A stretch of DNA of 64,000 nucleotides from Rufibacter sp. DG15C. GTDB taxonomy: Bacteria > Bacteroidota > Bacteroidia > Cytophagales > Hymenobacteraceae. The stretch is from contig NZ_CP010776.1 in NCBI RefSeq assembly GCF_001577755.1, positions 2,852,001-2,916,000 on the forward strand. The letters are read 5' to 3'. The position numbers were made by a program, and so were the translations under genes. The stretch's first letter is position 1. Each line of letters starts with the position of its first letter. A model generated the notes under the pieces. It ran no database searches, was not told the origin of the DNA, and saw only the letters and a list, made by a program, of their open reading frames with translations. Of the stretch, positions 40,567 through 42,204 are shown piece by piece.

Positions 40567-40742
40567 TTTTTATTCTTTTTTATGAAAAAGGTAAAAAAGG
40601 GTATCCCAAGGCCAGATTCTGCGATTTTAGAAAGAGGAAGGGCCTAAAGATGGCGCAAAGATAATGGAATATTTGACCTGCGGATGAAGTAGTTGTGGGC
40701 GCAATGGGGGAATGATTGCTTCCCAATTAACTTTTCACAAAC

Positions 40743-40780
40743 CGCTTTTGGCTTACTTTCTGGAAAACAAGCCAAAACAG
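40743..40780. repeat. Dispersed palindrome, copy 19
   Basis: Left arm CGCTTTTGGCTTACTTTC, right arm GAAAACAAGCCAAAACAG. It lies at the edge of the AT-rich island. Nothing else was seen in 40567-40799. Confidence 0.8.
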
Positions 40781-40907
40781 AGGTGATGTTTAAATATAGT
40801 GCTAACAGAAGTGATCTCGTTTTAAAGCAGACCTGCTGTAAAGTGTTGGTATTTTGCGTAAATAAATTCTATACGGGTGATGCTTTCAAGTGTGTTGTTA
40901 GGTTTCC

Positions 40908-41261
40908 CTATTCATTGGTTTTGATTACGAAAGCCTTCAACTCAGCCATCTTCCCATCCCTAAATCGCCAAACATCACAGTAGGAGTATTCAGCCATTTG
41001 ACCATCAGTATCTTTCAATCTGATTTTGCCAAGGGCAGTCACATAATCGCCTTCTGCTATCAAGTTTTCAACCATAAACTTAGGAGGCTCCAGATACGCA
41101 GAGGCTATGTACCGCCGGACGGCTTCCTTCCCTAGTAAGATCTGGTCCCCCACGAAGGTCCACGCCGTATCATCGGTGCAGAAAGCCAGAAATCCTTCAT
41201 TGTCACCCTTCGTGATAGCCGCGTTTGCCTTTTCTAATATTTTCTTATTCTCCTCTGCCAT
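40908..41261 (-). CDS. SnoaL/NTF2-like small protein
   Basis: 117 residues with the cone-shaped NTF2 fold pattern: an N-terminal helix (MAEENKKILEKANAAITKGDNEGFLAFCTDDTAWTFVG), GKEAVRRYIASAY, then beta strands with NLIAEGDYVTALGKIRLKDTDG and YSYCDVWRFRDGKMAELKAFV. Related to polyketide cyclase/steroid isomerase-like SnoaL proteins. No specific reaction can be given. It lies in the AT-rich island and may be a second cassette, see the attC-like sites. Confidence 0.82.
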   Translation of the reverse strand: MAEENKKILEKANAAITKGDNEGFLAFCTDDTAWTFVGDQILLGKEAVRRYIASAYLEPPKFMVENLIAEGDYVTALGKIRLKDTDGQMAEYSYCDVWRFRDGKMAELKAFVIKTNE

Positions 41262-41394
41262 TTAGATTTCTTTGCTATAGGTTAAAGTTTTATAGAATAA
41301 TTATGGTCAGATGTTTCTCAAATAGGTAGCACCACTCTTTAAGACGGTATCTACAAGTCTTTTTGGGTGTTTAATTAACAAGGAATTTATAGTA

Positions 41395-41465
41395 GCCTTA
41401 ACGGCTAGTATAAAAAACGTGCGAGGCCGTCGGCCGAAGCATGATTTTTATACAATGTTAGCACC
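41395..41465 (-). other. attC-like recombination site B (downstream of SUKH gene)
   Basis: Read on the minus strand it begins GGTGCTAAC (41465-41457) and ends GTTAAGGC (41402-41395). Inside, 9-bp arms GTATAAAAA (41408-41416) and TTTTTATAC (41445-41453) pair perfectly, then CGTGC/GCATG and GGCC/GGCC form an inner stem. This is the layout of an integron attC (R'' L'' loop L' R'). Confidence 0.55.
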
Positions 41466-42067
41466 TGTAATTTTTAATTTTCTTTAAGAAAGTATTCTCT
41501 GTTAGCTAACAGATTCTCCAGTTCATAAAACCAGAAGTTACCCTCACTTACAGCTTTCTCATCTATTGACTTTAATCTATAGTTAAGCTTTTCAAATTGT
41601 TCGTCCGTGAAATTGGAGTCGAGGAAAGCGTCCTCTCCATTCAAGCTTATTACTTCTTTCCCAAATTCCTTGTAGGCAGATAGAAACTGAAATAACTCAT
41701 TTACTGAAGTATTAACAAAGGTACTTTCGAATTCCTGCTCATGGTTTAGCACAACGACTTGGCAACCATTCATCAAGTCGATACAAAATGGGTCGCCGGC
41801 ACCTTCTGAGCCAATTATTAGAAGAAATTGATGTGCGAATTCTTCAGTTTCATAAACAAGTGCAATCGATTCTAGATTTAGAGTCGCTTCATTATGCCCA
41901 AATGTGAGAAAAGGTGCAGCTGATTTTGGGAGCCCGACTATAGACAAAAATTGAGTTGTATCATCATTGGCTCCCTTTTTTGAAAGTAAGTCACCATCAA
42001 ATTTGGACAGCTCTTTACCAGTCCAGTATTTAAGCAATTCTTTATAATTCATATTTATTGGTGCTAA
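41402..42067 (-). mobile_element. Candidate integron gene cassette carrying a SUKH gene
   Basis: The minus-strand unit starts inside GTTAGCACC and ends inside the next site's GTTAAGGC. Only 7 bp precede the start codon and about 8 bp follow the stop codon before the next R''-like box. If excised as a circle, the ends would form a site whose GGTGCTAAC and GTTAGCACC boxes are exactly complementary. No integrase gene is in the window, so this would be a CALIN-type remnant. Confidence 0.5.
41474..42052 (-). CDS. SUKH-type (SMI1/KNR4) immunity-like protein
   Basis: 192 residues resembling the SUKH superfamily (probably SUKH-4), whose members neutralise polymorphic toxins. Visible family traits are an N-terminal helix, LPKSAAPFLTFGHNE with hydrophobic strands, LLIIGSEGAGDPFCIDLMNGCQVVVLNHEQEFESTFVNTSVNEL and a C-terminal helical tail. 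Base composition is clearly AT-richer than neighbours, suggesting transfer. It is cassette-like, tightly bordered by two attC-like sites, and no toxin gene lies next to it, so it may be an orphan immunity gene. The assignment is by pattern, not search. Confidence 0.75.
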   Translation of the reverse strand: MNYKELLKYWTGKELSKFDGDLLSKKGANDDTTQFLSIVGLPKSAAPFLTFGHNEATLNLESIALVYETEEFAHQFLLIIGSEGAGDPFCIDLMNGCQVVVLNHEQEFESTFVNTSVNELFQFLSAYKEFGKEVISLNGEDAFLDSNFTDEQFEKLNYRLKSIDEKAVSEGNFWFYELENLLANREYFLKEN

Positions 42068-42120
42068 CTATTGTATAAACCGAACTATTCGGCTTATCTG
42101 CACTTTGTGCGTTATGCAGG
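42060..42120 (-). other. attC-like recombination site A (upstream of SUKH gene)
   Basis: On the minus strand from CCTGCATAAC (42120-42111) to GTTAGCACC (42068-42060), about 61 bp. An inner stem (CCGAA / TTCGG around CTA) and partial ATAAG/TTTAT pairing lie between the boxes. It lies 7 bp upstream of the SUKH start codon. Confidence 0.5.
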
Positions 42121-42153: not shown

Positions 42154-42204
42154 GTGGGCTGATGAATATACTACATTTAGTTTGTTGCATATTCATCAGC
42201 CCAC
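42154..42204. repeat. Inverted repeat with 16-bp perfect arms
   Basis: Arms GTGGGCTGATGAATAT (42154-42169) and its exact complement (42189-42204) around a 19-nt loop, adjoining the attC-like site. No T tract follows, so it is not a plain terminator. The rest of 42121-42296 holds no gene. Confidence 0.8.

Follow-up and report, generated by a model that had tools for sequence, protein, structure and literature searches.

Background

The genome of Rufibacter sp. DG15C contains a gene for an immunity-type protein that is bounded by two exactly complementary boxes, and this locus raises the question of whether the gene is the cargo of a mobile cassette and which recombinase would move it. The window, the whole stretch of DNA analysed here, comprises 64,000 nucleotides of this genome (contig NZ_CP010776.1, positions 2,852,001 to 2,916,000). 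We refer to the window's own genome as G000 and to its nearest relative as G017.

Integrons are held to need an IntI integrase with an extra domain that is both defining and necessary, according to PMC9668308, which cites Messier and Roy 2001. The IntI insertion has also been described as essential but incompletely conserved in an integron-like subgroup (PMC8138268). Based on IntegronFinder 2.0, the Bacteroidetes are nearly free of complete integrons; only In0 elements were known earlier, and later a single complete integron, that of Salinibacter ruber (PMC9024848). A search of the open literature provided no paper joining Rufibacter with integrons, and the papers on Bacteroidetes integrons that it returned do not contain the system described below. 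This capture system is apparently undescribed so far.

Results

Organization of the window cassette

Read along the minus strand, the locus consists of a terminator-like hairpin of the M28 peptidase gene, the junction ...GCACAAAGTGCAGATAAGCCGAATAGTTCGGTTTATACAATA|GTTAGCACC, a SUKH-4 gene, GGTGCTAAC, a hairpin and GTTAAGGC. The features are as follows (window coordinates):

42154..42204, no strand assigned: terminator-like inverted repeat of 22 bp where the M28 peptidase gene ends, on the outer side of the docking site
42163..42175, minus: TGTAGTATATTCA, a copy of motif TATAGTATATTCG; possible promoter
42063..42112, minus: attI-type site (docking site) with no adjoining integrase, ending ...GTTTATACAATA|GTTAG
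42060..42068, minus: R' box GTTAGCACC, seen in the sequence, with 9/9 pairing to the R'' box
41474..42052, minus: cassette gene for a 192-aa SUKH-4 immunity-type protein (Pfam SUKH-4; cassette homologues in G017 and G018)
41457..41465, minus: R'' box GGTGCTAAC, seen in the sequence
41393..41465, minus: attC hairpin of the SUKH cassette (attC model R3, folding, compensatory changes in the family)
41395..41402, minus: R' box of the attC, GTTAAGGC, seen in the sequence
40908..41261, minus: SnoaL_2 gene (Pfam), an insert specific to G000 with no support as a cassette

The original prediction had described this gene as a cassette between two attC-like sites, and much of that description holds. The boxes are real and exact at the coordinates given for them (GTTAGCACC at 42068-42060 and GGTGCTAAC at 41465-41457, both minus), the 9-bp arms GTATAAAAA/TTTTTATAC are present, and the downstream site forms the fold that had been predicted. 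Its R'' and R' boxes surround an imperfect hairpin in the order R'' - ATT - GTATAAAAA stem - TCGGCCGACGGCC apex - TTTTTATAC - TAGCC - R' (folding z -2.2 / -3.3). A covariance model had been proposed as a check for attC, and model R3, which was built from other genomes only and lacks any sequence of G000, matches this right-hand site with 76.8 bits (E 7e-19). In R3, 98.1% of the cells in the attC stem are paired, as against 25-50% when the stem is slid.

The left-hand site is of another kind. We compared it with R2, a model of 24 integrase-adjacent attI sites taken from other genomes only and from which the window's left site had been left out, and it matched with 51.8 bits (E 9e-15); therefore, the site that had been predicted as the left attC is an attI, and only the right one of the pair stands as an attC. 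The crossover would fall at G|TT between 42068 and 42067, a position that we infer from duplicated cassettes in G017.

The predicted combination of integron geometry and an immunity-type cargo gene was borne out, with a Pfam SUKH-4 match of the cargo at E 5.5e-12 (46.6 bits, cut-off 25.5). The product belongs to a family of immunity proteins and may protect against the toxin of a rival.

Exact copies of GTTAGCACC and its complement occur in the 64-kb window at these two sites only. Copies with one mismatch are at chance level in the window, and thus the boxes alone are not convincing, while the comparisons with other genomes are. An Rfam search of the window matched nothing. A hairpin occupies the same position as the 42154..42204 repeat in those genus mates where the interval is empty.

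The neighbouring SnoaL gene, previously proposed as a second, weaker cassette at 40904-40800, is not supported as such for lack of an attC: the attC model gives no match at this place with a threshold as loose as E 1, and the proposed boxes agree at only 3/6 positions. The stretch that contains it (40567-41390), which has no recognisable attC, has no counterpart at this interval in G017 and the other genus mates; no SnoaL match was found at the orthologous interval in genus mates.

The cassette and its docking site in relatives

A protein search of 291 genomes of the order identified SUKH homologues with 56% (G018) and 54% (G017) identity. Both genes have GTTGGCAC or GTTAGCAC ahead of the start codon and GGTGCTAAC past the stop codon, followed by different hairpins. 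The same boxes, which the prediction had suggested looking for around other genes, are found at the same ends of these homologous SUKH genes in two genomes, with different hairpins and flanks. Including the attC, the cassettes of G017 and G018 are 85% identical over 671 nt, whereas their flanks fail to align (30% over 59 columns). Identity between the window cassette and that of G017 is 60%.

Comparison with related strains had been suggested in search of empty sites. The interval between the flanking MarR and M28 peptidase genes measures 1,777 bp in the window versus 293-581 bp in five other genus mates, which have no such cassettes. In G017, the interval between the same genes contains other genes, and the orthologous place (L042 4104-4144) is a decayed attI (16 bits) with different cargo. 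The genome of the window contains five dispersed attI sites, each followed by an attC, and two of these are orthologous to G017 attI loci that carry other cassettes. One is the window site (L269/L292); the other, at 2,606,908 (L275/L273), has flanks that are 84% and 72% identical between G000 and G017 and contains one versus two cassettes. Its cassette gene in G000 is homologous to one within the integrase-led array of G017.

attC sites, arrays and cassette units

Searching for R boxes as strict palindromes inside a single attC overlooked the sites, since the boxes of an individual attC stem from two different cassettes; a split-box test solved this. A geometric scan revealed near-uniform hairpins, a cluster of them in G017 and a pair in G000, in both cases between crcB and lpdA, directly behind a tyrosine recombinase gene and in the same orientation. 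An alignment of 14 attC sites contains compensatory change in 9 of the 15 stem pairs. The attC model R1 finds 11 sites in G000 (E up to 0.003) and attC in 77 of 150 genomes of the family, in genera including Rufibacter, Pontibacter and Adhaeribacter (genera as inferred from the matching loci).

The arrays are organized into regular units. In four arrays, the median cassette is 501 nt long, and R' is complementary to the R'' of the next attC for 55 of 57 neighbours, compared with 5.2% of 934 non-neighbours. The cassettes have G|TT bounds, with R' pairing to the R'' of the same cassette, and a duplicated cassette in G017 provides two copies with 100% identity that starts and stops at GTT. The predicted departure from the GTTRRRY consensus is borne out: R' boxes begin GTTR in 60 of 62 cases, and only 11 of the 62 fit GTTRRRY. 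The array of G017 contains fifteen attC and that of G048, a member of the same genus, contains 36 in 23 kb. This super-integron-like locus (G048:C1:1068199-1092716; L300, L301) has 36 same-strand attC, plus one weak site, behind a recombinase.

Most of the 30 integrase loci have a same-strand attC at most 1.5 kb downstream. Beyond the window's family, genes of the same recombinase family are followed by attC-like hairpins in Flavobacterium aciduliphilum (L168) and Algibacter onchidii (L169), where R' pairs with the R'' after it. In a Bacteroidia MAG (L165), an attC-like hairpin is repeated with 98% identity in the corresponding place; these arrays are therefore not restricted to the window's family.

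Conservation and dispersal of attI

Approximately 30 loci have a conserved attI about 100 nt past the integrase stop codon (CACATAGTGCAGATAAGC...GTTTATACTATA|GTTR), with compact homology of ~55 bp. Such sites number 5-31 per genome in 76 of the 150 family genomes and four genera; all 76 also have attC. Most are far from an integrase, with no integrase within 1.5 kb upstream at 43 of 56 attI loci checked. They have polarity as well: a same-strand attC lies downstream at 49 of 57 attI loci and upstream at none.

The TATAGTATATTCG motif, a possible promoter, occurs 50-75 nt outside 11 of 43 dispersed attI sites, including that of the window, compared with 0.8 in shuffles and with 0 of 13 integrase-adjacent sites. 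Several dispersed attI sites (L272, L273, L282, L286, L290, L293) share a conserved upstream leader, comprised of a TTGTCAAAAACGACAA-like inverted repeat and TATAGTATATTCG, which is not present at integrase-adjacent attI sites.

The associated recombinase

The original prediction noted that no integrase is in view. This is correct for the window but not for the genome, where a non-IntI recombinase with attC cassettes lies ~115 kb away. The search for an IntI gene recommended with the prediction gave no canonical IntI in G000, whose candidate enzyme is of the XerA type and heads two attC cassettes. This candidate of 554 aa (G000:C1:2776534-2778195) combines a SAM-like domain with a phage-integrase catalytic domain. 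With the integron-integrase model TIGR02249 it reaches 212 bits (cut-off 265), profile positions 181-242 being unmatched, and with the XerA-type model NF040815 it reaches 220.5 bits (cut-off 220); its nearest solved folds are XerA.

The IntI-specific additional domain, on which assignment as a strict integron depends, was tested for and is absent. The stretch from GKGxKDR to HTLRH spans 70 residues in the alignment of this recombinase family, versus 112-117 in IntI, leaving ~42 residues absent, and the G017 enzyme lacks ~48 residues relative to VchIntIA (2a3v). In the tree, IntI forms its own fully supported clade, with these recombinases outside it.

Structure prediction suggests two N-terminal beta-beta-alpha-beta-beta-alpha-beta units. 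Their similarity to HARP is below the Pfam cut-off (E 0.012-0.25 in 4 of 16 members), and a PDB fold search with the N-terminal part of the recombinase gave no significant match. Among the recombinases, the number of such N-terminal domains, which measure ~70 aa and have no Pfam name, varies from zero to two (A5 columns 1-200; models mfb49183d8976 and m595470c631f3).

Distribution across genomes

Among the 150 family genomes, attC and attI occur together in 76, attC alone in one, and neither in 73. The recombinase is present in 64 of the 76 attC/attI genomes versus 10 of the 74 others, a comparison among related rather than independent samples, in which co-occurrence p-values overstate and model E-values are rough. 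Twelve attC/attI genomes lack a recombinase match at E 1e-50 (G009, G029, G043, G058, G082, G088, G098, G104, G106, G118, G124, G132) and may represent either natural enzyme losses or divergent enzymes. In one further genus of the family, ten genomes contain a recombinase relative and no attI.

Canonical IntI exceeds its cut-off in two of the 150 family genomes, both of one genus (G014: L236/L296; G029: L237/L297), and the attC model found no attC of this family's type near either locus. In a sample of 395 genomes of the phylum, IntI was present in 107. All but one of these (106) lie outside the window's class, in which the XerA-type recombinase occurs instead. The recombinase profile matches 117 of the 395 genomes, many over the core only.

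Discussion

Proposed function of the system

Based on these comparisons, we consider the SUKH gene to be probably a mobile cassette that occupies one of the dispersed attI sites of an integron-like capture system, which is served by one tyrosine recombinase (probability roughly 0.85). Comparison at the sequence level documents where cassettes begin and end, that attC and attI are conserved, occur together and have a polarity, that cassettes have moved and been duplicated, and that a docking site common to sister species differs in cargo. The recombinase would act on attC folded as a single strand and recombine it with attI at G|TT, allowing insertion, excision and shuffling of cassettes in the array at its own attI. 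The same enzyme may also act in trans at the 5-31 attI sites scattered over the genome. This last step is less sure because the G000 enzyme is of a divergent type with ~37% identity to the common one, its neighbouring attI differs, and some genomes keep attI sites without the enzyme; the putative attI beside the G000 integrase is not recognised by R2 and differs from the dispersed sites.

A fuller model, to which we give slightly better than even odds, is that of a distributed integron. One non-IntI recombinase would serve its own array and 5-31 attI sites in trans, some of them preceded by a promoter-like leader. Cassettes would then pass among fixed sites of expression rather than be kept together in a single array. 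As the recombinase has no IntI insert, its recognition of attC would differ, perhaps relying on the N-terminal domains.

Alternative explanations

The original prediction of a CALIN-like remnant provides the most serious competing view, in which the lone attI and its cassette are left from a complete integron at this place that lost its integrase, with no use in trans. It would account for the missing integrase in twelve attI/attC genomes, for the many solo sites with only one or two cassettes, and for the decay of the orthologous attI in G017. It overlooks that scattered attI sites are the rule in these genera, and 5-31 of them per genome over four genera, homology as compact as ~55 bp and a promoter-like motif confined to dispersed sites all argue against it. 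The same is true of the solo-site cassette of G000 that has a homologue in the G017 array and of the different cargo at the same site in the sister species. We therefore regard a remnant as possible but distinctly less probable than docking at a dispersed attI.

An ordinary integron, whose cassettes are moved by a conventional IntI from other bacteria or by an unseen one with the XerA-like recombinase as a bystander, would explain why attC/attI geometry and G|TT boundaries resemble those of integrons, and another genus of the family does include two genomes with IntI above its cut-off. This is improbable, as the other 148 of 150 family genomes have no IntI, the arrays are headed by the XerA-type recombinase, and no such attC lies near the two IntI loci. 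An ordinary gene flanked by chance palindromes or by transcription terminators might be suspected in AT-rich DNA where one-mismatch boxes are as common as expected, but this explanation is already refuted by independent models at E 7e-19 and 9e-15, by homologues elsewhere with the same boxes, and by the exact duplicated cassette.

Relationship to known systems

The docking system has much in common with integrons (IntI, attI and attC; e.g. the sedentary chromosomal integrons of Vibrio), including attC hairpins with R''/R', an integrase-adjacent attI, one-gene cassettes of ~500 nt with G|TT boundaries, long arrays of near-uniform attC sites and duplicated cassettes. It differs in a recombinase that lacks the ~42-residue IntI insert, falls outside the IntI clade and has extra N-terminal domains, as well as in its rare fit to GTTRRRY, in the shared direction of integrase and cassettes, and in the many attI sites per genome. 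Judged from its sequences, the system appears to behave like an integron; it lacks the defining IntI domain and is for that reason not classed here as a strict integron.

CALINs are attC clusters without an integrase (PMC9024848), and the window cassette likewise has no neighbouring integrase. The window, however, contains one attC match rather than at least two, the site is marked by an attI, and a recombinase is encoded elsewhere in the genome. Cassettes at scattered genomic places are also reminiscent of attG sites, which, in the account of Loot et al. 2024 cited in PMC12444791, are neither attC nor attI and permit broad insertion of cassettes outside integrons; each place here is marked by a conserved ~55-bp attI-type site with polarity. 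The catalytic core is shared with XerA-type recombinases (NF040815, 'site-specific tyrosine recombinase/integron integrase'), although the enzyme here heads cassette arrays and has two N-terminal domains. In the delta-attI-type cassettes of class 1 and 2 integrons (PMC12901181), attI sequence also accompanies a cassette away from the platform, but as a shortened attI downstream of the gene, in contrast to the full attI upstream of the gene here.

About half of the family genomes sampled contain a platform of this kind, with dispersed docking sites, a recombinase other than IntI and up to 36 cassettes per array, which tools that require the IntI domain would miss. Such platforms provide a natural test of what an integrase needs to handle folded attC DNA and expose a large unread reservoir of cassettes.

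The recombinases at crcB-lpdA in G000 (L008:10531-12195) and G017 (L078:11267-12796) are only ~37% identical (54% in the core) and their attI sites differ, which suggests that the platform integrase has been swapped.
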